NCBI GenBank assembly: GCA_949297125.1
Contig: CASFRS010000004.1
Span: 1-64,000 of the forward strand
Direction of reading: 5' to 3'
Source: an uncultured Bacteroidales bacterium
GTDB lineage: Bacteria > Bacteroidota > Bacteroidia > Bacteroidales > G3-4614
Length of the DNA stretch: 64,000 nucleotides
Made by a program: the position numbers and the translations under genes. How positions within the stretch are numbered: position 1 is the stretch's first letter; each line of letters begins with the position of its first letter. Shown piece after piece: positions 1-13,857 of this stretch. The notes under the pieces were generated by a model. That model saw nothing but the letters and a program-made list of their open reading frames with translations, ran no database searches and was not told the DNA's origin.

Positions 1-125
1 AAATCCAATGCGCATACCGCATCCTCACCTACAAAGAGTCGCTTATGTTATGGCAGACTTCTATCATGGGCTTTGGCAAACAAGGTTACTTCGACTGGAT
101 AATCCCTGCAATAAATACACTTTGA
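1..125 (+). CDS. C-terminal end of an unidentified gene
   Basis: An open frame enters from the left edge and stops at 123-125, giving about 40 residues that end in aromatic and glycine-rich sequence (GFGKQGYFDWIIP). There is no second open frame of similar quality, and the stretch 126-267 has no convincing coding frame. The piece converges on the broken res gene that follows. No family is recognised, and the fragment may itself be part of the decayed restriction locus. Confidence 0.3.
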   Translation, partial: IQCAYRILTYKESLMLWQTSIMGFGKQGYFDWIIPAINTL

Positions 126-267
126 GAATCCGGCAAACACTGAAATGACATCTGGCAAAGTTAGTTGCTACATCTGCTCTATATATCCCAATTACCGAAA
201 TTAGAAGTCCATTACAGTACTTTGCTCAAACTGGCAGCAGCGTATTAGGAACAGATGAAAAGTCAGA

Positions 268-1062
268 TTAAATCTGTTTAACTAAGTCGTGATCATAAGC
301 CTTAACGGGGTTTAGACTATATATTAGATTATATTTATTGCGATGTGTTGCCGAATGATGCAGCGTGCAAAGAGGATTGAGATTGGCAATTGCCGCAATT
401 CGCTTTTCCGACTCCATATTTTGTGGTTCATCAACGATGACAATAGGATTGACTGATCGAATGAACCGAATAGGCTCCTGCCCGTTGAGTTTATTGTTTG
501 GTTTGTTGATTACATTCTCATCCTTGGCGAAAGAGTCGACATTGATAACTAACACCTCAATATTATTCCTTGTAGCGAAACCTCATAACTGGGATATTTT
601 ATTCCGATCATAGACATAATAACGAATCGGGACATTGTCATAAAGCGTTTGAATGTGGTTGTGCGTAATCTGCAGATTCTTTAACACACCTTCACGAATC
701 GGCACGGACGGTACTACAATTACAAATTTCCGGAATCCATACAATCTATTCAATTCATAGATTGTATGCAGAGACATAGGTTTTACCTGTTCCTGTCTCC
801 ATTACTATGGAGAAATGTATCCCACTCAGTTTCTCGGAAGCAGGAATATCATTCCGCTCCTGAATTTTTTGCAGATTGGTTAATATTTGAGATTCATCCA
901 AAACCAATCTATTGCCAACACCAGCTATTAAATTGAGCACGCCGTCTTCATTCAGATTATACTGATAATCTGAATCACAGAGCGATTGTCCTTCAAATAA
1001 ATCGACAACTGCTCGTATGGCATCCTGCTGATAGCCTAAATTGGATTCAAAGGTTAGTTTCG
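268..1062 (-). pseudogene. res: type III restriction enzyme Res subunit, broken
   Basis: Three successive leftward pieces in different frames read as the start of a type III Res helicase-nuclease. The first (about 1062-755) begins KLTFESNLGYQQDAIRAVV and carries the Walker A segment METGTGKT. The second (777-583) continues with IVVPSVPIREGVLKNL. The third (555-268) has the type III form of motif II, VDEPQNMES, and motif III, HHSATHRNKYN, before a stop. The helicase C-terminal lobe and the nuclease domain are missing, so no active enzyme can be made. The reading begins directly after the stop of the TOPRIM-like gene at 1066, as if res had been the last gene of a mod-AAA-TOPRIM-res operon. No convincing ATG start remains. 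Confidence 0.8.
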
Positions 1063-1065
1063 TTA

Positions 1066-1731
1066 TTACATATAATTTAATGTCCGATACGTATTACGGA
1101 CCTCCTCTTGAAATCTCTGATATGAATTTAGTAACGATAGTCTATCTAAACCTATTTTATCACCTATAATTGCATATAAATCGGAGATTGTTAAACGCTG
1201 ACGCCGTTTAGGAAGATCAGATTGTGCAATTCTAATAGCCTCTTCAATTACTGCCTTAGGATCAGCTATTGATTCAGGATCCTTATTAATCCTTAAATCA
1301 TTATCTGATTTTGTCGTTCCGATTTCAGACTTCAATAAATCTTTATCTGCCAACATCCATGCTTCCATCATTCGCACGGGTATTACAGGTGTTAATATTT
1401 TACAATAATCATCACCTTGTTTATCCAATTCCTCTTGCGCAGGATCGATATTGTACCTTCTCCTTCCATCATACGTTTCCCTGTCTGCATCTGCATGAAT
1501 TGCCAATACCATCATACCAAAATCTTTGACTCCGTTATACGAGGCCTGCTTTACGTATTCAACAAATGACCGCCCGGTTTTTTTAGTATTAAGTCTGCGT
1601 ATATCAATGTCTATATCCGGCCTACACTCTCTCAATGCAACTTCCTGAAATGTACGGCGTACTATGCTCTCAAAGAACTGAATATCCGTAGTTCCCTCAG
1701 TAGCCAGTCCAATAAAAATCTGTACAACCAT
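1066..1731 (-). CDS. TOPRIM-like DUF4276-type protein, partner of AAA ATPase
   Basis: A 221-residue protein. It opens with FIGLATEGTTDIQFFE, where the acidic residues of EGxTD match the first TOPRIM-type metal site, and it has a later acidic cluster, LAIHADADRET, matching the DxD element. This pattern is typical of DUF4276 and OLD-like nucleases that sit next to AAA ATPases. The ATG at 1731 is preferred over an upstream frame extension because AAGGAG and a GAGG lie just before it, and it sits 4 bases after the ATPase stop. The inferred job is a metal-dependent nuclease effector controlled by the ATPase. It could be an inactive sensor if the metal residues do not align. Confidence 0.65.
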   Translation of the reverse strand: MVVQIFIGLATEGTTDIQFFESIVRRTFQEVALRECRPDIDIDIRRLNTKKTGRSFVEYVKQASYNGVKDFGMMVLAIHADADRETYDGRRRYNIDPAQEELDKQGDDYCKILTPVIPVRMMEAWMLADKDLLKSEIGTTKSDNDLRINKDPESIADPKAVIEEAIRIAQSDLPKRRQRLTISDLYAIIGDKIGLDRLSLLNSYQRFQEEVRNTYRTLNYM

Positions 1732-1735
1732 AACC

Positions 1736-3136
1736 TCAGCACTCCTTCTTAATAGATTCATTGTCATTAGACTGCATAAATTCATTCATCATTTGCAAAG
1801 TCGATTTTGACTCCTGTTCAGAGAATATAATTTTTGTTTGCAATGGATTGTTTTTGGGAACAGGCGTTATTTTGGTTGCTAATAATTTCTTTTTTTCTTC
1901 ATTTACAGAGCATATTCTAACAACCACCCGTGCAAAGTCAATGGAGACAAACGGCGATGAAAGCCATTGGTAGATTGCAGAAACAAAAACAGTAGAATGG
2001 GTATTAACAATTACTTGGCGTAGTGGCATATCGGTATTACTGAAATCCGTAGATAAGTCTTTTAGAAGATCTGCCATCATCTTAATTCTAAAAGGATGTA
2101 TTCCATTTTCGGGCTCTTCGAAACATAATAATCCTTGGTGTTTGTTGTCTATATATAAGATGCATAATGTCAGAATGCGGAGCGTCCCTTCTGATAATAC
2201 ACGGGAAGAGTACTCTTTGCTGTCTACATCATGCAAGATAACTACATATTGTTTATTTTCGACATCGTCAAATACATCCACATCAATAAAACTTGGTAGA
2301 AATGAATGTAATCTACGAGATATCTCTTTCATGTTATAGCTATCCTCTTGCTTGATGCGAAACAATGCTGCGGCAAGATTTTCTCCAGTAGCACTAATTA
2401 TATCTTCTCCGCTTGTTTTACTTGTTGGAAGCCGAAGGCTCTCAGGATTTAATCGTAAAAAACGCCAGCTTTTCATCTCTTCTTTTGCAGCAAGAATGTG
2501 TTTGAAATCCACAGAATCAACACTGCTTAGAACTGTTCTAGTGGTATTATTCAATGGATATATCCGTTTTTTTCCTTGCGATCCATCCTGAGGAACTATG
2601 ATAGAATCAATACCATTATATCTTTCTGTATATATATATGGTATCTGACGTTTGCCTGTGACTACTTTGGGACGCCATATTTCAGCATATTTTGACGGGA
2701 TAATCTTAATCCATTTATCTTTGTTATGTTTTATAGTATCTAAATATTCATGTATGACTTCAATATCCTCCATCCCAACACTATTGGTGAAGCGGCGTAG
2801 TATTAATTCATAACGAAGCCTAGTATAACGCAATTTAGCTGTTGCCCCCCATGTGTCAGTCACAGTTGGATTGACCAACATTTCAACTACAAAGGACATT
2901 TCCTTTGCAACAGAATGATCATCATACTGGGTAAAAAGTTCCAACAGATCACCGCGCTGTTTTCTAAATGCACGTTGAATCTTATCTGTATCAGCCAATG
3001 CTGCTAATAAATGGAAAGCATCAAAGAGATTGCTTTTCCCTGCTGCATTTGAGCCAGCAATCACTGTGAACGGGGTAAAATCCATTTCGAAATTTTGAAA
3101 TGATTTAAACCCGTCTATCTTAATATAGGTAATCAT
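1736..3136 (-). CDS. AAA ATPase, OLD/ABC-like (AAA_21 type)
   Basis: A 466-residue ATPase of the SMC/ABC-like AAA class. Visible motifs are the N-terminal strand YIKIDGFKSFQNF, Walker A GSNAAGKSN at about residue 30, a signature LSEGTLRIL at about 317, Walker B LLCFEEPENGIHP at about 337, and the switch histidine in VIVNTHST at about 380. Proteins of this build pair with TOPRIM-like nucleases in several anti-phage systems (PARIS, Gabija and OLD-like pairs). The gene is followed after 4 bases by the DUF4276-type gene, so they are co-translated. It starts 12 bases after a type III Mod remnant. A two-gene abortive-infection module is the most likely role, by inference. Confidence 0.75.
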   Translation of the reverse strand: MITYIKIDGFKSFQNFEMDFTPFTVIAGSNAAGKSNLFDAFHLLAALADTDKIQRAFRKQRGDLLELFTQYDDHSVAKEMSFVVEMLVNPTVTDTWGATAKLRYTRLRYELILRRFTNSVGMEDIEVIHEYLDTIKHNKDKWIKIIPSKYAEIWRPKVVTGKRQIPYIYTERYNGIDSIIVPQDGSQGKKRIYPLNNTTRTVLSSVDSVDFKHILAAKEEMKSWRFLRLNPESLRLPTSKTSGEDIISATGENLAAALFRIKQEDSYNMKEISRRLHSFLPSFIDVDVFDDVENKQYVVILHDVDSKEYSSRVLSEGTLRILTLCILYIDNKHQGLLCFEEPENGIHPFRIKMMADLLKDLSTDFSNTDMPLRQVIVNTHSTVFVSAIYQWLSSPFVSIDFARVVVRICSVNEEKKKLLATKITPVPKNNPLQTKIIFSEQESKSTLQMMNEFMQSNDNESIKKEC

Positions 3137-3147
3137 AACTCCTTTAA

Positions 3148-3609
3148 TTATATCGTCTTAAATTCTATCCCACCATCTCGCATTTGCAGGACGGTATTGG
3201 TTTTCAACTGATCGTTGCCCTCGAACAAATTGTCAAGTGCAATGACTTTTGGGGGATGTGCCGCCAAATCCGCATCAACCGTTTCCTGAGTTGCTGATTC
3301 CAGTATCAGAATCAACTCGCCGTCATTCACCGTATAATATCCAGCCTTGTGTACGATACGACTGTTCAGATCCTTGCCGTTTTTCAACAGCAGTTCATAA
3401 ACCATATTTTTAACTATCCCATTTTTTCCCACTGTGTAACATGTGGAAAAATTACCCCCAGTTTCATTCTTTAATCTATTGAGGGCCGCAAGTTTCTTAA
3501 CTATTGCTATTACCCAACCTGCAATAGTTTTACCTTCAAGGTCTACAGAAGCAAAAAGCTTAGTCATATCTATACATAGATCTTTCAATTGGTCATTATT
3601 GCCCACCAT
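3148..3609 (-). pseudogene. mod: C-terminal remnant of type III methyltransferase Mod
   Basis: This 153-residue frame begins at an ATG but lacks every catalytic motif of a DNA methyltransferase. Its last half (YELLLKNG, then AGYYTVNDGELILILE, and finally LDNLFEGNDQLKTNTVLQM with GIEFKTI) has the layout I know from C-termini of type III Mod proteins, the part that contacts Res. The N-terminal 60 residues do not resemble Mod. With the broken res gene at 268-1062 it frames the AAA/TOPRIM pair, so an ancestral mod-AAA-TOPRIM-res order is likely. The family call rests on memory of the motif; the alternative is a different small protein that shares this tail. Confidence 0.55.
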
Positions 3610-3680
3610 TATACTTAAAATATATTTTTACCAAGATACAGCATTAAAATTAAGTACACTCTCAGTATAAATAAGCGCTA

Positions 3681-4064
3681 TCAAATCACGCTAATTAATG
3701 CAATAAAATCCTCTTTTGAAGAAATCTTCTCTTTGAGTTTGACGAGTCCATAAATCATTAAGATTCTTACATATCGATATGGTGTAGTACAATTAGGATA
3801 TATCCCTTTTATAACAGTGGCAATCTTACCATCAGGATCAATTCCACCAGTACTATAATTTGAACCATTATTATTATAAATATCCGGCTGCACCTTACTT
3901 GTAAGGATAGACTCAATATTTATTTCATCACGACAATATTTTAAGGCATAGGCCATCCCAAATTTTGCAGCATCCTGATTATCATCGAAGAAATACTTTT
4001 CTGCAAAATCATTAGCGATTTCTGTGGCTATAGAAGAAAGCCTAAATTGTACTAAATCTTCCAT
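3681..4064 (-). CDS. 127-residue protein downstream of DndD-like ATPase
   Basis: A small protein of unknown function. The start MEDLVQFRLSSIATEIANDF and the following helix (AKFGMAYALKY) recall the size and position of DndE-type small partners that follow DndD, but I see no diagnostic DndE motif. The middle holds a Gly/Asn-rich loop (NNNGSNYSTGGIDPDGKIATV) and the C-terminal third is helical. It begins 2 bases after the stop of the ATPase gene, so it is the last gene of the methyltransferase-helicase-ATPase operon. A DNA-binding or adaptor role is only inference. Confidence 0.55.
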   Translation of the reverse strand: MEDLVQFRLSSIATEIANDFAEKYFFDDNQDAAKFGMAYALKYCRDEINIESILTSKVQPDIYNNNGSNYSTGGIDPDGKIATVIKGIYPNCTTPYRYVRILMIYGLVKLKEKISSKEDFIALISVI

Positions 4065-4066
4065 GG

Positions 4067-6043
4067 TTATTCTATTTCTGTTTCAAATTCAGATCTTTGC
4101 TTAAGATAGATATCTTTCAAGTATTTTTCTGACAACAGATCTTTGGCATCACTCTGACTAACCTCAGTCGGATATGCAAGCACGATAATCTGTTCTCCAA
4201 GGACAGGTAGCGATCTCAATGTATTATTTCTATGCCTAGGATCAATTCTCTGGAATGTGGAATCCATAACAATAGGTCCTGAGATGGGGGCATTCTTATG
4301 CAATGCTCCTACAAGGGAAAGGGCTACAACCTGCTCATATCCAGCCGAACGATTGGGAACAATCCGACCATTGCTTGTCACAATTTCGAGCCCATAGTTA
4401 TCATTTATTTTTAACCCTTTATAGGCTGGCATGTGAGATATCTCTGTAAATATATCTTCAGCATCAGCCTGCACTCGATCTTTCAAATCCGCTCTAAACT
4501 TCGATACGGCCTTTTCAAATATTTCTTGAACAGCCTTGCAAAACGCAAGATCTTCAGAAGCCTTTTTGCCATCAGCATTTGATTGTTTTAAAATCTTAGC
4601 ATTTAATTTTTCAATCGAAGCCTGATTTTCTGAAATTGCCTCATCCTGCTTAGTTATACCCTCCTCCAATAAGGTCAATTCTTGGAGTTTTTTCTTATAC
4701 ATTGGTTGTAGTCCCAAAATTTCTGTATCTGTAGATGAGTTATGGAACCCCGCTTTTTTCTTCTTAATCTCAGCTAAATCAACCTCATCCAAACTTATCG
4801 CAGACTGTTTAGAATAAATATTATTTAATAAATTTATGAGGGACTCTTTATCAACATTCCTTTTAAAGCCATTAAATCTATCTATAATTTGCCTAGCATA
4901 CATTATTTCCTCCGAATTCTTTGATTCGTCCGACTTCTTTAAAATTGCTAATTTTTCACGCAAACTAGATATATCTTCAATGGTTAGATTATTATTACAT
5001 ACCGGACACGAAGAGACTTCTCCTTTAACAATTTTATCTAATATTGCAACTATGACCTCTTTTGTCTTAATATCCCCAATGCGGGATAACAAAGAATTTA
5101 ATTCTTCATTTTTCGTGTCAATAATCTCTTGGATAACCTTATCAAAAATAACACTCCAAGCAAATTTCATTTTTGCCTTAAGGTCATTTACGTCATTCTC
5201 CAAAAGAAGACGATTTGTCTCAATCTGAGATTTTTTTTCTCTTTCTTGGGCAAGTAATTCTGCGTACCTCTGATTTGCAGCAAAAGCATCCTCGATCTCA
5301 GAGATTTCATTTTGAAGTTTCATCCTTTGTTCTTTCATCTCTTTTATAGATTTCTTAAGTTCCTCATCATGCAATAAGAACCCAGACAACACAGATGAAT
5401 CATTTTTTGTTCTTTCGTTTGCGGCTGAAACCTTAGTGTATATCTGTTGGTATATCGTAGTTATACTCAGAAGATTTTTATTTGCCCCTTCAAGAATGGG
5501 AAGACCCAAAATATTTTCGATAGAAGTCTTGATAACATCACTACTTGATGATGAATCTTCAAGAAGATTCTCATACTGTCTTAATAATTCGCCGTCGAAC
5601 AAATAAAAACGAGATATTTTTTCTGGCAAAACTGTGTTAAGAAAGTGTTCAGCTTCATCTTGGCTCATCATAGACCCAAAATGTTTTAGATATAACTTAT
5701 GCTCATAATCCGAATCATTTTTCCCAGAAGTGCCAGGCAGTCTTTTAAGCATACGGGTAAGTTCATAATCTTCATTATCATATGTCATAAAAAGCTTAAC
5801 ACTCATATTCTTCTGAGCCTCTACTGCATCAATATTTACGAATTTTGCCAATTGGCACTCCTCGTAATTTCTATTGTATACAATTCCCCATAAGGCAAAA
5901 CGAATACAATTAAGTAGCGACGTCTTTCCCACGCCATTCTCGCCCCAGACAAATGTAACACCATCACCGGCAGGGAACTCCAAAATCTGGTTATTTTGGT
6001 ATGGGCCAAAGTTGTCGATGATAAGTTTATTAATTCGTAACAT
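4067..6043 (-). CDS. DndD-like SMC/Rad50-family ATPase
   Basis: A 658-residue ATPase with globular ends and a long coiled coil. Walker A is WGENGVGKTSLLN near residue 35. Coiled-coil arms flank a CPVCNNN motif near residue 350, similar to a zinc hook. A signature-like stretch, SAGYEQVVALSLVGAL, follows at about 570, and the Walker B region reads PIVMDSTFQRIDPRHR, close to the DndD form. DndD acts with DndB, C and E in DNA phosphorothioation, but none of those enzymes is present here. The start codon overlaps the stop of the 63-residue gene by one base (TAATG), so translation is coupled. In this operon it probably senses or loops DNA and drives the helicase/nuclease partner. Confidence 0.75.
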   Translation of the reverse strand: MLRINKLIIDNFGPYQNNQILEFPAGDGVTFVWGENGVGKTSLLNCIRFALWGIVYNRNYEECQLAKFVNIDAVEAQKNMSVKLFMTYDNEDYELTRMLKRLPGTSGKNDSDYEHKLYLKHFGSMMSQDEAEHFLNTVLPEKISRFYLFDGELLRQYENLLEDSSSSSDVIKTSIENILGLPILEGANKNLLSITTIYQQIYTKVSAANERTKNDSSVLSGFLLHDEELKKSIKEMKEQRMKLQNEISEIEDAFAANQRYAELLAQEREKKSQIETNRLLLENDVNDLKAKMKFAWSVIFDKVIQEIIDTKNEELNSLLSRIGDIKTKEVIVAILDKIVKGEVSSCPVCNNNLTIEDISSLREKLAILKKSDESKNSEEIMYARQIIDRFNGFKRNVDKESLINLLNNIYSKQSAISLDEVDLAEIKKKKAGFHNSSTDTEILGLQPMYKKKLQELTLLEEGITKQDEAISENQASIEKLNAKILKQSNADGKKASEDLAFCKAVQEIFEKAVSKFRADLKDRVQADAEDIFTEISHMPAYKGLKINDNYGLEIVTSNGRIVPNRSAGYEQVVALSLVGALHKNAPISGPIVMDSTFQRIDPRHRNNTLRSLPVLGEQIIVLAYPTEVSQSDAKDLLSEKYLKDIYLKQRSEFETEIE

Positions 6044-6234
6044 TATGACTTTGATTTAATGGTATTATCTATAACTATTCGAATAGCATTTTGTGATTTA
6101 GAACTATCATCCATATTCTCAATCTGAGCATTAAGAACCGCCTCAATAAATTGAGCGGGAATATCGGGATGTTTACTCGACCGGATTTCTTCTAAGATAT
6201 CTCTGATCTTATTTAATTCGTTACTCATTTTCAT
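6043..6234 (-). CDS. 63-residue helical protein between helicase and ATPase
   Basis: A short acidic-to-basic helical protein (ELNKIRDILEEIRSS, later SQNAIRIVIDNTIKSKS). It overlaps the end of the helicase gene by 14 bases and the start of the ATPase gene by one base, so it is translated as part of a chain. Two ATGs are possible, at 6234 and 6228. No family is recognised. The strict overlaps on both sides argue that it is real and makes a small subunit of the complex. Confidence 0.6.
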   Translation of the reverse strand: MKMSNELNKIRDILEEIRSSKHPDIPAQFIEAVLNAQIENMDDSSKSQNAIRIVIDNTIKSKS

Positions 6235-8344
6235 GGCCGATATTATTAGTTAATAATGTGTCATCTATGTTATGTTTTAATGCAATAATTCTTAACTGAG
6301 TAATACAAGACGGATCTTTTGACCACATTCCAAATTGTATACATCTAGCCAACTCTGTCGCAACCATATCATTCCGTCTAATTTCATCGACTTTGTCTGA
6401 AAAGTCTGGGACAACAACAGCATCATACAACCAAGAATAATACTTACCTGCATATTTCCGCAAAATTCGACCTCTTCGCTGAATGTACTCTCTCGGATTC
6501 TGTGACGAGGCCAAGATTATAGCATGTGAAGTAGCGGGAATATCAACTCCTTCATCCAAACATTTTATAGAAACAATAACTCCACCACAGTCATTAAAAT
6601 AGTTCAATGTTGCACTTTTATCCCCTGGCATATCTGCATAGTATTCGTATGCATCTACATTTGGGTTTGTTGATATTTCTTTTAATACATCATGTAATTG
6701 ATCCTTGTCTTCACAATATATAATCCATCTCTGTCCACTACTATATTCTTCATCAAGTATTTGCTTTGCTAATGCAACTTTTCCTCTGGCTTTCTTGATA
6801 ATACGACATCTTTTTAATAAAAGAGATTGCATATATTGATCATTGGAAAAAGAATATGATGCATCATGGGCACACCTCGCATATCGTATACCTATTTCCT
6901 CTGTAAGTTCACTCCATACTTGTTGCTCAAATGAGGTCAATTGCACGACCTTAGGCCGATAATAATATGGGGTTAACACCTGATCGTCAATGGCATTTTT
7001 TAAAGTATATGGAGGTTCTATTATTCCCCCAAAGTACTCTATAATGGCTTGAGTTCCTTCAGGATCACCATATCTACGCGGAGTCGCAGAAAGCCCCAAA
7101 CGGTAACCGGCATCTATTACGAAAAAATTTCGCCTATTCAAGCTGCCCATTCTATGAACCTCATCAGCGACAACAAATAAATGTCCTCCATGTTTTATTC
7201 GTTGTATAAATCTGGGCATAACAGCCGTATCCATTGTTGATATGACAACCGTATTGTTTTTATCACTTTTTTGCGTAGCTGCCTCTAACACACCTTCTTT
7301 ATTCCATCTATTATGACTATCTCCACATAAAATAATTCGGAGATTTACATCTGACAAAGTAAGTCTTATTTCTTTATCCCACTGCGATAATAAATCAGTT
7401 GATGGGACTAAAACAATGATACTCTTATGTTCTTCTAACGCTTTCCTTATTGCACAAATTGCAGTATATGTCTTACCACTACCCGTAGCATGTTCAAAAA
7501 TTCCACGATGCTCTTGCTTTACCCATTTTTCTAAAGCATCAATTTGATGCTTTCTTGGCAACCTTTCAAATGATTTATCAGCAGCCCAATACCGCGCCAA
7601 ATCAACCTTAACCTTAATCTCCTCGACTAATGTTTCCCAATGTACTTTGGCAATTTTGTCTTTAAACCGAATCTTAATATCCTCAGGCAATGGAGTTATC
7701 TCAATCATTGGAGCTTTATTATTCCAAAGCATTTCAAAATAATCTTGAGTATCTCCGACTCTTTCTCTATCATTACTTTCTTGCCAATTAGTAAACACAT
7801 CTATGGATTCAAAATTTCCATCATCTGAAAGTCCTTTATATGTTTCATTTAATGAACCTCTAAACATTATAGCATTATCACCTTGATAGAATATGCCGGC
7901 TTTATCATGGAAAAGCCTTTTAATATCCCCCTCACCTTCTCCATACGCAATTTTTATTTCAATTACATTCGTAGCAATGAGGCATGCAAGCACTTGACTT
8001 GGTTTTTCCAACTCGCTACTAGCAAAAAGAGAGTCTATTTCCTCTACTAACGCACGATGCAAAATTTCATCTTTTTTTGCGAACTCTCCTGTTTTAATCG
8101 CTTTAATATCTTCGTCAGATAAGCATGGAGAACAAATAATTCGCATTTTTCCTCCATTATGGACGAAATCCTTAAGAGCATTCCATGCAATTATATAAAT
8201 TGTACTACCAAAATAACCTGATAGACGATCATATGAGGTTGCTGCAGACATACAGGGGATGTAAAACTCCTCTGCAATATTATCATTTACCTTGTTATAT
8301 GTCCTTTTTAAAACAAGGTCCTCATATTTGATCCTTTTGTTCAT
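6221..8344 (-). CDS. PLD-like nuclease fused to DEAH helicase
   Basis: A 707-residue protein with two parts. The N-terminal part (about 1-210) is phospholipase-D-like: DRLSGYFGSTIYI is followed by an HxK element in LFHDKAGIFYQGD and by GSLNET. The C-terminal part is a superfamily 2 helicase: Walker A ATGSGKTYTA at about 285, DEVH box in VVADEVHRMGS at about 395, SATPRR at about 425, and motif VI QRRGRILRK at about 620. PLD-helicases of this build act as restriction effectors, and DISARM uses a separate PLD nuclease. The start overlaps the methyltransferase stop as ATGA. It is probably the DNA-cleaving motor of the operon, restrained by the methyltransferase mark. Confidence 0.8.
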   Translation of the reverse strand: MNKRIKYEDLVLKRTYNKVNDNIAEEFYIPCMSAATSYDRLSGYFGSTIYIIAWNALKDFVHNGGKMRIICSPCLSDEDIKAIKTGEFAKKDEILHRALVEEIDSLFASSELEKPSQVLACLIATNVIEIKIAYGEGEGDIKRLFHDKAGIFYQGDNAIMFRGSLNETYKGLSDDGNFESIDVFTNWQESNDRERVGDTQDYFEMLWNNKAPMIEITPLPEDIKIRFKDKIAKVHWETLVEEIKVKVDLARYWAADKSFERLPRKHQIDALEKWVKQEHRGIFEHATGSGKTYTAICAIRKALEEHKSIIVLVPSTDLLSQWDKEIRLTLSDVNLRIILCGDSHNRWNKEGVLEAATQKSDKNNTVVISTMDTAVMPRFIQRIKHGGHLFVVADEVHRMGSLNRRNFFVIDAGYRLGLSATPRRYGDPEGTQAIIEYFGGIIEPPYTLKNAIDDQVLTPYYYRPKVVQLTSFEQQVWSELTEEIGIRYARCAHDASYSFSNDQYMQSLLLKRCRIIKKARGKVALAKQILDEEYSSGQRWIIYCEDKDQLHDVLKEISTNPNVDAYEYYADMPGDKSATLNYFNDCGGVIVSIKCLDEGVDIPATSHAIILASSQNPREYIQRRGRILRKYAGKYYSWLYDAVVVPDFSDKVDEIRRNDMVATELARCIQFGMWSKDPSCITQLRIIALKHNIDDTLLTNNIGHENE

Positions 8345-9669
8345 TCTCCAATTAATCTTGCTTTAATAGCCTTAGATAAATACTCTGCCCGTGCAGCATA
8401 CAACACCTCTCCATTTGTTTTAACTCCCCTAGCAACTTTCTCTTGCATAGCACGTAGGATTAAATCATCTTTACACTGGACATTAGCATTATAAGAGAAG
8501 TTTTTATGCTTTTCCGCATCATACAAGACAAACACGTCATAATCTTCAACATACGAGACTAACAGAGCATATGCAGAAGAATCAAAATTACCTCTTTGTC
8601 CTTTTTCTTGATTGGGAACATTCAAATTAAACTTATACTCATGAATACTCCTTCCTCCAGGTGGGTTCGTTGCAGGAAATGCATAAATAAGCAATTCAAT
8701 TGGGATTGGGCTCGAAAGCTTAAGTTTTAAGGGCCTTTCGTTAAGGGCACTATGTTCCACAACTGCAATTCCAAGAGATTGAATAAACTTCCGCTGAATG
8801 GACTCCCTTTGTTTGGATATTTTGCTTACCATAGCCAATTCCTCCGATAAGATATCTAATGAATGACTCGAATATTCAACATACTCCTTGCTGATGTCAT
8901 ATCCGGCAAAACGTCGTCCAAGCCTCAAACACTCATACCCAGTAGTCCCGGATCCAAGCCATGGATCAACAACCAAATCTCCTTCTTTCGTACATGCTTT
9001 AATATATTTAGCAGGAAGGTATCCTGGTTGCACAGCCTGATGTTCTAATTGTTTAGACGACACACTTCCCTTTATAACATTAAGAGGAAGTGCTCCTTTG
9101 GGATTTGGTTTTATATGTTTGGCTTTCCTCACATAAGAAAGTCCATTCGCACGAGGTTTAAACTCATTATGAGCATACGCCTTTAATGTCTCAGCATCAT
9201 ATTCTCTCCGAATATCATCTATATTTATTTTCCATTGTGGACTAACAGAAAACCATAGATTCTGTTCATAGGCATCTTGACAAGCGACACGAAGTCCTGT
9301 AGGGACAGGATTATCTTTAATCCATATTTCAATGTCCACACAATAGAGATGCCATCTTTCCTCTAATTCAATCGCTAATTTTTCGACAATCAGAGATCGA
9401 GTACTATTTATTCCTTTGCGAGGTTTTTCTCTATTAGCCTTAACATTAATAACCAAAAAGCCATCGTCACGAAGCTTTGCACATGCGGCATCGATAAAAG
9501 GCGATATTTTATCTATATACTCCGCAGAAGACCAATTACCATAATTACGATCAGCATTGGGGTATGGAGGAGACCCATAAACCAATTTGATAGATTTATC
9601 AGGAAGAGACAAAATTCCTTTTGCCCCATCAACACATTCAACAATATAATCTTTGTTATTCCTTTTCAT
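8341..9669 (-). CDS. SPPY-type DNA methyltransferase with C-terminal extension
   Basis: A 442-residue adenine/cytosine-N4-type methyltransferase of the beta order. Motif IV is VYGSPPYPNADRNY near residue 35, and the AdoMet motif I is DPWLGSGTTGYECL near 245. SPPY at motif IV is usual for N4-cytosine enzymes. About 150 residues follow motif I, with a conserved-looking block (IHEYKFNLNVPNQEKGQRGNF, then YDVFVLYDAEKHKNF) that resembles domains fused to or next to type II restriction enzymes. I use the ATG at 9669; a TTG at 9684 is an alternative, and both lie inside the preceding gene. Two different methyltransferases in one operon suggest an asymmetric recognition site. Confidence 0.8.
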   Translation of the reverse strand: MKRNNKDYIVECVDGAKGILSLPDKSIKLVYGSPPYPNADRNYGNWSSAEYIDKISPFIDAACAKLRDDGFLVINVKANREKPRKGINSTRSLIVEKLAIELEERWHLYCVDIEIWIKDNPVPTGLRVACQDAYEQNLWFSVSPQWKINIDDIRREYDAETLKAYAHNEFKPRANGLSYVRKAKHIKPNPKGALPLNVIKGSVSSKQLEHQAVQPGYLPAKYIKACTKEGDLVVDPWLGSGTTGYECLRLGRRFAGYDISKEYVEYSSHSLDILSEELAMVSKISKQRESIQRKFIQSLGIAVVEHSALNERPLKLKLSSPIPIELLIYAFPATNPPGGRSIHEYKFNLNVPNQEKGQRGNFDSSAYALLVSYVEDYDVFVLYDAEKHKNFSYNANVQCKDDLILRAMQEKVARGVKTNGEVLYAARAEYLSKAIKARLIGE

Positions 9670-10540
9670 TCCCCTCACGCTCAATTCTTAATGTTGCGAG
9701 TTCACAATAATCATTATTAGCATCTATTCCTATCCAACGTCTATGATGGAGTTTCGCAACTAAACACGTTGTTCCCGAACCAGAGAAAGGATCAAGAACG
9801 ATATCACCTTTATTGGTTCCAGCCAGAATAAAGAATTCCGCTAGCTTTTCTGGGAATCTTGCCGGATGGCTCAAACCTCTTTCTTTACAAAGTTTAAAGA
9901 ATAAATCATTACTATTCGTATTGCCAATAGAAATTACACTTCCAGGGTCAGATCCACCGTTATTTTTCCATTTTATTCCACAATTAAAATTATGGGTACT
10001 GGGGCGAGTATTCTCAGTTCTACCTCCTTTTCCTTTGCCGTCGAGAAATTTCTGCATATCCTTGCTATAAGGTTTCCGAATCGGATCCATATTGAAAGTC
10101 CACTTCTCTGATTTACTAAACCAAAAACAATATTCATGAGATTTTTTTGTTCTCCCATATTTCCCCGTAGAATAAATATTAGGCGGAGTTGCCGGATTAT
10201 ACCAAATATAATCGCGTACTAAATGAAAATGGAGTTCTTTGCAAAGGTATACGACCAATTCAAAAACATATATTTGCTGGACACCATTTACTACCTTGTC
10301 ACTAATATTCAAAACAAAACTTCCATCGTTCTTTAAAACACGATAGATCTCTTTTGCCATTGGTTTAAACCAATCAAGATATTCTGCAGGAGACGAAGAA
10401 GTATTTTCAATAGCGTAATTTCTTTTATCAGCGTATGGAGGAGATGTTAGAATAAAATCGATACTATCATCATCAAGATTTTTTAACACCTCTTCACATC
10501 TTCCGTTTATTATCCTATTTTGAATCTCTTCCGGCCTCAT
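9656..10540 (-). CDS. SPPY-type DNA methyltransferase, first gene of operon
   Basis: A 294-residue DNA methyltransferase. Motif IV is LTSPPYADKRNY near residue 33 and motif I is DPFSGSGTTCLVAKL near 255, the beta-class order. TSPPY suggests N4-cytosine methylation. The middle has W-rich target-recognition sequence and a run of polar residues around 170-215. It starts the leftward operon that continues through the second methyltransferase, helicase, small protein, ATPase and 127-residue protein, all with overlaps or 2-base gaps. The enzyme should protect host DNA from the PLD-helicase effector. Confidence 0.85.
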   Translation of the reverse strand: MRPEEIQNRIINGRCEEVLKNLDDDSIDFILTSPPYADKRNYAIENTSSSPAEYLDWFKPMAKEIYRVLKNDGSFVLNISDKVVNGVQQIYVFELVVYLCKELHFHLVRDYIWYNPATPPNIYSTGKYGRTKKSHEYCFWFSKSEKWTFNMDPIRKPYSKDMQKFLDGKGKGGRTENTRPSTHNFNCGIKWKNNGGSDPGSVISIGNTNSNDLFFKLCKERGLSHPARFPEKLAEFFILAGTNKGDIVLDPFSGSGTTCLVAKLHHRRWIGIDANNDYCELATLRIEREGNEKE

Positions 10541-10824
10541 ATATCTAATATATCAATCAATTTATGATTGCAACTCATTTATTAGTAGCGTTATTTAACT
10601 GATAAGAATTAACTGCACCTTGCACAAGGTGCTATATTTTACAAAGATACATAATTCACATATAAGAATATAGTTTATTATTATGTTTCTCAAAAATTAA
10701 CACACATATCAAGCAATGTCAAAACTAATATTTGTGATGAATTATCCCAATACTCCCTCGATCTTGGTCTATTTCTATACAACTCGTATAAAAATAAGCC
10801 AAATCTTTTATTACCATCAATCCG
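10541..10824 (-). promoter_or_regulatory. leader/promoter region of the methyltransferase operon
   Basis: This AT-rich stretch lies before the first methyltransferase gene. Reading leftward it has a TATCTTTG box at 10649-10642, matching the Bacteroidetes -7 consensus TAnnTTTG, about 100 bases from the start codon. No good -33 TTTG is seen at the usual distance, so this is a weak call. The rest of the stretch holds no gene that I can support. Confidence 0.4.
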
Positions 10825-11286
10825 TCAAGCGATGACCATTACACACGCCTCGGGCTGCCATTCTGTAAGTGAAATAATCGCCTGATATTGCTCTATAGTC
10901 AGAGGTGAATCGCCATCGTCCGTACATTCGTATTCCCATGGCAGTTCATAAACGGAACCTTCTTCCTGATAGCCCATATAGTTGTGAAAGGAGTCGGGGA
11001 CAATCCGTACATAATCCTCTTCGAGCAGGGTTCTTAGGAGTTTCTCCGCATCATATATCAGCAGCGGTGTCCCGGCCTTATACAAGGCTGTCGCTACTTC
11101 GATGGCCAATCCGGCATTGGCAGAATAACTGTTGGAGACAACGATTATCCAGCCCTGCTGACGCTTGTTTGAGGCAAAGATATTCAAGCGCGAAAGTCCC
11201 AACTCACCGTAGTGGTCCGTAGCAAACCGTATTAAATCCTCCGGGCTGTCATTTCCTAAAATTGGTTGACGGGATTTGATATTAAA
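10825..11286 (-). pseudogene. 5'-truncated gene of unknown function
   Basis: A frame of 153 codons is open from 11286 to the stop at 10825 but holds no ATG. It starts straight after an in-frame stop and the first usable codon is a TTG at 11202. The readable part (SPEDLIRFATDHYGELGLS, VVSNSYSANAGLAIEVATAL, GTPLLIYDAEKLL) looks like a normal alpha/beta protein with an acidic tail. The missing start and the low-complexity DNA just upstream point to a gene cut at its 5' end. Family not recognised. Confidence 0.5.
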
Positions 11287-11289
11287 TTA

Positions 11290-11995
11290 ATTATGTTTAT
11301 TTGCAGCAAGTATAATTCCTATTGCAAGTTTATGATTATTTACTTTTCTCTGTTGGCATCCTTGATTTTATTGAAAATCATTTTGTCTAGCTATTCATTT
11401 TTCAATATACCGTTCACCCTTTCATCAGTCGCCTTATCATTAGGGAGATAAGTCTTGTGTCATGCCAATCCTAAAGTGTTGCTCTTGCTATATTGACTTT
11501 TTCTGAATTTAGTTGACAGTTTAGAACTTTGCATTTTTTCAAGCGAATAGAACCTATTATCCTACACTTTTTCAAGCGAATCAGACTCCCTTTATACACT
11601 TTTCCATCAAAATTGAGGCTTGAGAACTACACTTTTCCATGAAATCATCACTTTTACTTTATCCCCGTATTCATATATACATTTATTAAAGTAAAGTCAG
11701 AACAGAGGGAAGAAAAGGGATGGCTGCGCCAGAAGAGTCAAACCCGATTTGCCGAAGTCCATAAATGATACTACCTTTTCTCATTTGGCTGCAAGACCTA
11801 TAGGCGAATGTTGAGCATCCCGTAAAGGGGCCACTTTTCTACGGATTTTGGAGGCTACTTTATTTCTGGGCAGTAGGGTCAGTTTTGAGCGGATTTTCCA
11901 TTTCAGCAAATGATAAGTTATAGGCAGTAATTAAAAGGCAAATACAATAATAGCAAATTTTAGTGTCCGATTTTTTAGAATGGATACATAATAAT
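11290..11995. other. non-coding scar with short direct repeats
   Basis: About 700 bases without a credible gene. Two direct repeats stand out: TTTTTCAAGCGAAT occurs at about 11535 and 11569, and TACACTTTTCCAT at about 11594 and 11628. A phrase about 'cacttttctacggattt' near 11831 is echoed loosely near 11891 by 'cagttttgagcggatttt'. The stretch looks like the remains of an insertion or of intergenic mobile DNA between the defence operon and the PrfH-RtcB island. No transposase remnant was recognised. Confidence 0.4.
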
Positions 11996-12595
11996 TCATA
12001 ACGTTCCCGAGAATGTTTTTACGGGATTCCCACGCAAAAGTGTAGTATGTTTGCCCCACTTGGACGCACGGAAAGATGCTGCGGCTGAGTCTTTTCTCTG
12101 CTGTAGCTTCAGAAGAAGCAGGCTACGAGCCATTTCCTTGTTCTGTGGCTGTGAACGTTGGGCACTGCATTTGACAGAAATCCCGGTCGGTCGGTGAGTG
12201 GCACGGACAGCCGACTCCACTTTATTGACGTTCTGTCCGCCATGTCCTCCCGAACGCATGGTTTCGTAAACAATATCTTTGTCTGACACGTTCGGTAATG
12301 CTACGAGGTCAATAAACTCCACACCGACAAACCAGTTCTTACGGGGATGACCGGGGCGGTAAGGATTTGATGTCGCCCGCCAGAGAACCGTTCCGCTCCA
12401 TGCCTGTTCCTTAGCCGGACTTACTTCTGCAATAAACAGCATCGACATGTAGCAGTCAAGTTCCGTATTGTGCGGTTCGCTTTCCACGATTTCCGCATCC
12501 GGGAAGTCCTTCAGCAGTTCACAGGCTATAAGCGTAATGGCGCGGGCGCACTCCACAGGCCCCCGTCCGGCCGTAAGTTGTATATACTTTTTCAT
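11996..12595 (-). CDS. prfH: peptide chain release factor homologue PrfH
   Basis: A 199-residue class-I release-factor-like protein. It has the catalytic GGQ loop in [21 protein letters not shown] at about residue 115 and the usual basic tail, but lacks the N-terminal and codon-recognition domains of full PrfA/PrfB, as expected for PrfH. It overlaps the rtcB stop as ATGA, the operon arrangement known for PrfH-RtcB2. In that system PrfH recognises ribosomes whose 16S decoding centre has been cut, releases the nascent peptide, and RtcB reseals the RNA. It is the last gene of the leftward island. Confidence 0.9.
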
Positions 12596-13791
12596 TTGGG
12601 AATATCTTTGATATTTATGCGGGGTTTGACTAGCGTGATGACTTCGGCTGTCGGCTCAATCAGGCGCAATATCTCTTCCATAGGCTTGTACGCCTGTGGC
12701 GATTCGTCGAGCGTACCGGGACAAACGGACGTGGAAAATATACCGTTCATTGACTTTTCAAACTCATCCATCGCGATATTCTTCTTGGCTGCGTTTCTTG
12801 ACATGGCACGCCCTGCGCCATGCGGAGCGGAACAGTTCCATTCGGCATTTCCTTTGCCCACACAGATGGCTATGCCGTCGCGCATGTTGAAAGGCAGGCA
12901 GAAGCGTTCTCCTTCAGCGGCTTCAACTGCCCCCTTGCGCAGCATGGGAAATTCTTCGCAAACGGATATATAATTGTGCGTGGTGAATATGGATTCCGTG
13001 CATTTGGTCTTGCAGAGTTTTTTCAAGATTGCGAAGATACGGTCTCGAATGACATGGTGGTTATATAGGGCATACGCCTGAGCCACGACCATATCAGAGA
13101 TATAACCGTTAAGTGTATCGTCCCACAAATAGCCGATAAATTGCGTCCGTTTGGGATTCTGAGCGATGTTGTGCCAATGATTGGCCACTTTAATCCCCAC
13201 GTTCCGTGAACCGCAATGTATCGTGAGCCATCCCTTATGCGTTTGTTCGTCCTCACCGTATTCAATGAAGTGGTTGCCCCCGCCGAGCGTTCCGAGGCTT
13301 TTATAGAAAACAGCTTCCTGAAGCTTTATCCTGCGGCAGAAGTCATAAATAAAGCGGGCATCAATGCGCGGCGCTTCGTTAATCAGTTCAGGAGCGGATG
13401 AGCGTGCTTTCCGGTATTGCGAGTCAAGAAAGCGGAACAGTTCCTTTTCGTTCAGACTGTTTTTCTTGCAAATCTCCATACCGGTCGGGATAGTTTCACG
13501 GATTCTGTGGTCAAGCAAGGCAAAGTCTTCCGGTGCGACCGCGGAAGACAATCTGTGCATGGAAATAGTACACCCGATGTCTACACCAACATGGTCGGGA
13601 TTAAGGTATGCACCAATCCTATACGCCGTGCCCACATTACAGTAATTTCCAGCATGGACATCGGGCATCTGCACTATTCTGACAGATTCAAAAGCCGGAT
13701 GGTCGCATTGTGCCTTAATCCACTGCAAAGCAGCATCCTCTATATTCTTTGCGAATATCTCTGCCGATGTGTATTGTCCTGTAACTGTCAT
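12592..13791 (-). CDS. rtcB: RNA ligase RtcB (RtcB2-type, PrfH-linked)
   Basis: A 399-residue RNA ligase that joins 2',3'-cyclic-phosphate and 5'-OH ends through a GMP-histidine intermediate. Visible signatures are [15 protein letters not shown], the metal-binding [17 protein letters not shown], and the guanylate site HGAGRAMSR. The ATG at 13791 is preferred to a TTG 3 codons earlier. The gene overlaps prfH by four bases. In this pairing its substrate is expected to be 16S rRNA cut at the decoding centre by colicin-E3-like toxins, rather than tRNA introns. It follows a uracil-DNA-glycosylase-like gene by 66 bases. Confidence 0.92.
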
Positions 13792-13857
13792 ATTATACAA
13801 ATCATTATTCCATATTACTTGATTTTCATGGTATTGGTTTTGCTTTATTCACTAGAA

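Follow-up and report, generated by a model that had tools for sequence, protein, structure and literature searches.

The locus and its six genes

The window analysed here is a stretch of 64,000 nucleotides from an uncultured Bacteroidales bacterium (GCA_949297125.1, contig CASFRS010000004.1, positions 1 to 64,000), of which positions 3681 to 10540 hold the cassette under study. The open reading frame list and the translations confirmed all six genes at the positions given in the original prediction. They lie on the minus strand and follow one another, in the direction of transcription, as M1, M2, PbeA, PbeB, PbeC and PbeD.

9656..10540, minus strand: M1, DNA methylase of the N4/N6 class, 294 aa (PF01555)
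8341..9684, minus strand: M2–MTaX1 fusion, 447 aa, TTG start (PF01555 and PF20296)
8341..8799, minus strand: MTaX1 domain, residues 296–447 of M2, with a predicted PD-(D/E)XK-like fold
6221..8344, minus strand: PbeA, HKD (PLD) nuclease domain and SF2 helicase, 707 aa (PADLOC PbeA)
6043..6234, minus strand: PbeB-type small protein, 63 aa (Sp-DndD PF20306 below cut-off; position after PbeA)
4067..6043, minus strand: PbeC, DndD-like coiled-coil ABC ATPase, 658 aa (PADLOC PbeC, CPVC hook)
3681..4064, minus strand: PbeD, DndE-type protein, 127 aa (two predicted ribbon-helix-helix units)
3702..10576, no strand assigned: block common to the window and locus L001 (nucleotide match with an uncultured Alistipes)

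M1 and M2 overlap by 29 bp, M2 and PbeA by 4 bp, PbeA and PbeB by 14 bp, and PbeB and PbeC by 1 bp; PbeC and PbeD are separated by a 2-bp gap. The overlaps suggest that the six genes form one transcription unit. Scans for promoters and terminators returned sites at about shuffled level (38 against a shuffle mean of 33.0, and 5 against 4.3), and the promoter pattern had no match upstream of M1. An 18-base palindrome, GCACCTTGTGCAAGGTGC (10615–10632), which could possibly be an operator, lies some 75 bases upstream of M1 and beyond the block that L001 shares.

Further genes surround the cassette. At 1066–3136 on the minus strand, the gene of an AAA_21 ATPase (466 aa; PADLOC HEC-01A, E 6e-135) overlaps that of a DUF4276 protein (239 aa; HEC-01B, E 4e-65), and by these matches the two are a candidate for a separate defence pair. 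A 153-aa protein at 3148–3609 (minus strand), likewise outside the shared block, had no Pfam or NCBIfam match and showed weak PADLOC matches to the C-terminus of a type III methylase and to PDC-M71A. At 11996–13800 (minus strand), the gene of an RF-1-domain (PrfH-like) protein overlaps an RtcB ligase gene; presumably they are an RNA-repair pair.

Predicted functions of the cassette proteins

Both methylases belong to the N6_N4_Mtase family (Pfam PF01555; E 1.9e-53 for M1 and 5.9e-33 for M2). In M1, SPPY at residue 33 is followed by DPFSGSGTT at residue 250, and in both proteins SPPY precedes the glycine-rich motif, which we take to be the permuted order of N4/N6 beta-type enzymes. The best solved relative of M1 was the N4-cytosine methylase M.PvuII (E 3.1e-49). 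Of the two SPPY methyltransferases originally proposed, both thus stand as PF01555 proteins, but the second is a methylase–MTaX1 fusion and not a methylase alone: MTaX1 (Methylase-associated X1, PF20296) was matched in its C-terminal part, at residues 330–440 (Pfam, E 3e-17). Paired methylase motifs recur in relatives: 12 further loci encode a single methylase of 1262–1351 aa in which DPPF occurs twice, and L026 has two open reading frames instead, each with one DPPF motif. An asymmetric site is a plausible, putative target of M1 and M2.

PbeA matched the PADLOC PbeA model with E 3.1e-210 and TIGR04095 with E 1.2e-102, the latter below the model cut-off. Its Pfam domains are ResIII and Helicase_C, with a weak PLDc_2 match (27.3 bits, cut-off 27). 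Residues H146, K148, G163, N166, E167, D394, E395, H397, Q622-R623-R624 and R626 were invariant across all 80 aligned rows, and as a prediction, the earlier reading of the PLD-helicase as a motor and nuclease is supported by this conservation of catalytic and helicase residues and by the PADLOC match. The protein has one HKD motif, however, and at the usual aspartate position the window has Y153 while other rows vary (T in 20/80, S in 18/80). Cutting by PbeA may hence need dimers or not happen. We consider it possible, though doubtful, that the cassette, though of this family, does not cut at all and that PbeC, PbeD and PbeA would instead clamp and translocate on unmethylated invader DNA and block its replication. 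The unconserved aspartate position agrees with this, as does an archaeal relative linked to phosphorothioation (DndCDEA–PbeABCD), in which viral DNA stayed uncleaved and replication was halted according to PMC6459918. Against it, the invariance of H146, K148, G163, N166 and E167 suggests selection on a nuclease site, and PMC10853773 argues for cleavage on the grounds that the HKD domain is present.

The 63-aa PbeB was similar to Sp-DndD (PF20306) with E 0.0034, below cut-off. A small, fast-evolving protein between PbeA and PbeC is characteristic of the family, and with an iterated profile relatives of PbeB were found directly after PbeA in 73 of the 76 loci with room for one. Such retention would also suit an abortive response, in which a phage relieves inhibition by PbeB (or MTaX1), PbeA turns on the DNA of the cell itself and the infected cell dies; PMC10853773 proposes this for the family, citing the small, mostly disordered PbeB-type protein. 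Two dedicated methylases, or tandem ones with two motifs, point to self/non-self marking rather than to a suicide switch, and we regard an abortive role as unlikely.

PbeC matched the PADLOC PbeC model (E 2.3e-153) and, below cut-off, the DndD-like model TIGR03185 (E 6.8e-36). The original view of a DndD-like ATPase as the likely DNA sensor is supported. A search of the PDB with PbeC returned Rad50 entries only. The apical hook expected of the family's ABC ATPase is present as a Zn-hook, CPVC, at residues 346–349. Among 76 family open reading frames of 600–760 aa, all 71 plus-strand PbeC relatives have CxxC at about the hook position, and the five without it are nearby minus-strand DndD-like frames. 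The motif is written 'CxC' in PMC10853773, as opposed to CxxC in the window.

From its structure model, the 127-aa PbeD is predicted to have a DndE fold made of two ribbon-helix-helix units, and the earlier statement that no DndE was seen is not supported. A PDB sequence search with a DndE profile returned no DndE, only apparently chance rows. The loops of the PbeD model comprise 5 and 6 residues and its last helix 10, closer to the clade-1 than to the clade-2 averages that PMC10853773 gives. There, Zn-hook ATPases are paired with clade-2 DndE, which has longer loops; the loop lengths are a point against the family reading favoured below.

Conservation, descent and family assignment

Relatives were collected from genome contigs in one scan with 25 aligned PbeA sequences, and the best 80 of 151 were used. 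The carriers among them include Mogibacterium pumilum (L008), Cohnella laeviribosi (L004) and Oscillibacter valericigenes (L020). In 79 loci, counted only where the contig continues, PbeA was followed by PbeB in 73/76, by PbeC in 72/73 and by PbeD in 69/69. All 17 two-methylase loci, a class with two separate small methylases that was defined by our own thresholds and by MTaX1 beside PbeA, show exactly the order M1–M2–MTaX1–PbeA–PbeB–PbeC–PbeD across Bacteroidota and Bacillota; PbeD is absent only from L012 and L024, where the contigs end before it. The arrangement thus recurs in other genomes, as the original prediction had anticipated, and is more than chance.

With L001 set aside, identity to the window in the remaining 16 two-methylase loci was 60–72% for M1, 58–73% for M2, 46–55% for PbeA, 32–60% for MTaX1 and 26–40% for PbeC; for PbeD it was 29–48% (14 two-methylase loci). 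The conserved methylases suggest, as far as sequences can tell, a single shared target site. Pairwise distances of all pairs of parts correlate (Spearman 0.60–0.81), as expected of a cassette that travels together, although shared ancestry of the hosts alone would also yield this. It is highly improbable that M1 and M2 are a solitary pair with no relation to the Pbe module beside them. The constant gene order, the overlapping reading frames, the correlated distances and the presence of the methylases inside the 6.9-kb block common to L001 all speak against such an accident. In its favour one may cite a clade of PbeA proteins without MTaX1, some loci of which show no such methylase nearby.

This clade of 28 loci (SH-aLRT 100) emerged in a PbeA tree of 80 sequences, namely 79 loci and the window; L021, with a short PbeA frame, was left out of the tree but included in the recount. 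MTaX1 lies beside PbeA in none of the 28 loci and in 50 of the 52 others (L021 included), a split of 50 versus 28 that is not a random sample because the 80 loci are the best of 151 and were found with the window's own kin. The two others that lack MTaX1, L035 and L036, are on contigs that begin 3 bases ahead of the PbeA match. The labels agree with the tree, needing 20 changes where shuffled labels need 51.4 on average, in this sample that centres on relatives of the window; in that test L063 carried the label "none" and L015 and L016 the label "truncated", though MTaX1 is present there. All five loci in which a DndD-like gene without the hook lies nearby fall within the MTaX1-free clade. In 24 loci, all of this clade, a family of 823–945 aa (655 aa in L072) is encoded downstream of PbeD; its representative, L054:14682-17477, matched HARE-HTH, RNA polymerase alpha-CTD and sigma-70 region 4. 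The Pfam identity of families c0 and c1 was taken from one representative each. Locus L044 (Actinocatenispora comari) has a tandem pair of PbeA–PbeC–PbeD sets.

Locus L001, from an uncultured Alistipes, aligned with the window from 10576 to 3702 (6877 columns, 96.7%), and elsewhere matched it in one 79-base stretch only; the six genes are thus shared without their neighbours and sit in unrelated surroundings in the two genomes, and this 6.9-kb block is likely a mobile cassette, judging from the alignment. G+C content is 36–38% over positions 1–12000, versus 40–53% in 25 of 26 further 2-kb steps. At E <= 1e-60, PbeA occurred in 4 of 393 genomes of the order, the other three at 31–37% identity; within the family, 1 of 8 genomes, the window's own, has it. 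Relatives were also found on 14 of 72,556 plasmids (29–41% identity, E <= 1e-60), in 2 of 50,697 phage records (31–32%, E <= 1e-40) and on 3 viral contigs (38–51%).

Taken together, the six genes probably constitute a methylase-linked PbeABCD (CxC ABC-ATPase–DndE) system, likely for ATP-dependent restriction-modification defence. PbeABCD was named in PMC6459918 (Xiong et al. 2019), which reports that 155 of 320 solitary PbeAC have base-modifying genes no further than 10 kb away; versions with cytosine methylases and MTaX1 are described in PMC10853773 (Rakesh, Aravind & Krishnan 2024), where the methylase-linked kind is already published as a prediction. The window shows what defines that version, permuted N4-type methylases (PF01555 twice) and MTaX1 (PF20296 once). 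The modification-linked defence logic first suggested for this operon is supported. Its novelty is not: that the set is a categorically new defence system is exceedingly improbable, since PbeA and PbeC match named PADLOC models and the gene combination is described in PMC10853773, even if PADLOC has no model matching the 63-aa or the 127-aa protein and the methylase-linked form had no type name that we could find. By these models, PMC6459918 and PMC10853773, the order is already catalogued, which the original prediction had named as something that would refute it.

Proposed site recognition and mode of action, and known systems

The window, L001 and L002 have MTaX1 fused to M2, and the other 15 of the 17 two-methylase loci have a separate gene for it between M2 and PbeA; elsewhere its gene overlaps PbeA. 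Among 101 MTaX1 proteins from a protein database, 24 also contain PF01555, one has an HNH_2 domain and one has PF14338, presumably Mrr_N. The MTaX1 protein of L028, the sole alphaproteobacterial one scanned with Pfam, has HTH_17 at its N-terminus, and that of L026 matches an excisionase HTH model. A PDB sequence search with the MTaX1 profile returned no nuclease, only apparently chance rows. Ten loci with large methylases encode a second MTaX1 protein (320–376 aa; e.g. L052:14711-15754) close to the Pbe cassette, in eight cases downstream of PbeD.

We may tentatively speculate that MTaX1 is a PD-(D/E)XK-derived recognition subunit that defines the methylation branch of Pbe and lends site specificity to the methylases as well as to the PbeA motor, in the way HsdS does in type I systems, while DndE would provide general DNA binding only. 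This is suggested by its fusion to a methylase here, its overlap with PbeA elsewhere and the single cases with HTH or HNH, and by M1 and M2 being 58–73% identical from Bacteroidota to Bacillota when PbeC and DndE are at 26–40% and 29–48%. A DndE that diverged while the methylases were conserved fits poorly with the idea that site specificity resides chiefly in DndE. As far as PMC10853773 and PMC6459918 show, what is new is the fusion of MTaX1 to a methylase, its occurrence throughout the branch and the prediction of its fold, although the fold may already be described in the source paper of MTaX1 (ref. 24 of PMC10853773). As the gene that defines the branch, MTaX1 hints at where site recognition may lie.

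In the restriction-modification system that we favour, M1 and M2 would methylate, probably at N4 of cytosine, both strands of one site and so mark self DNA, with MTaX1 as the DNA-recognition part common to the modifying and the restricting arms. PbeC and PbeD might assemble into a Rad50/SMC-like complex for scanning and bridging DNA. Where a site is unmethylated, PbeA would be loaded, its helicase would translocate, and either the HKD domain would nick or cut or replication would stall; PbeB may keep the complex in check. In the one relative tested, the archaeal one linked to phosphorothioation, any single pbe deletion impaired protection, a virus with phosphorothioate-modified DNA escaped and viral DNA was not seen to be cleaved (PMC6459918), whereas PMC10853773 argues that invader DNA is cut or that the cell kills itself. 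In the open literature searched, we came across no laboratory test of the methylase-linked form of Pbe.

The cassette was compared with several known systems. The anti-phage PLD-helicase families also combine PLD and helicase in one protein, but PbeA resembles them weakly (NF042964, 86.5 bits at a cut-off of 1100; PADLOC PLD_Helicase, E 3.9e-14). Of DISARM, no Drm model was among the 20 PADLOC families listed for the 707-aa protein (DrmA), and no DUF1998 turned up in the Pfam scan of ten proteins at 1066–11202 (DrmB). Dnd (DndBCDE) has a DndD-like ATPase and DndE in common with the cassette; however, DndD is without the Zn-hook of PbeC, and DndC (TIGR03183) had no match in the window's own genome (27 contigs, 99.79% complete), a search of unproven power, as 5 of 14 controls gave a match and 0 of 14 one above cut-off. 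By this same search, the phosphorothioate modification gene DndC that accompanies PbeABCD in PMC6459918 was likewise not found. Type I and type III restriction-modification systems also join an ATP-dependent motor with methylases and target marking, whereas the cassette has two permuted methylases, a Rad50-like ATPase and DndE; among the Pfam matches of the ten proteins there was no HsdM (N6_Mtase) or HsdS of type I, the methylases being PF01555.

Closest are the two published forms of Pbe. PbeABCD with DndCDEA (PMC6459918) has the same four genes in the same A–B–C–D order, and here methylases replace the phosphorothioate genes. The CxC systems of PMC10853773 share with the cassette the HKD and SF2 helicase protein, the small protein, the Zn-hook ATPase, DndE, N4-type methylases, MTaX1 and the lack of a detected DndC; they differ in that their text speaks of a gene coding for MTaX1, which here is fused to the second methylase, and in that the window has a CxxC hook and DndE loops shorter than the clade-2 averages. 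At 6.9 kb the cassette is a compact test case for whether a core of DndE and Zn-hook ATPase works with base methylation instead of phosphorothioation, and it is also suited to the question of PbeA cutting versus a replication block, on which PMC6459918 and PMC10853773 disagree.
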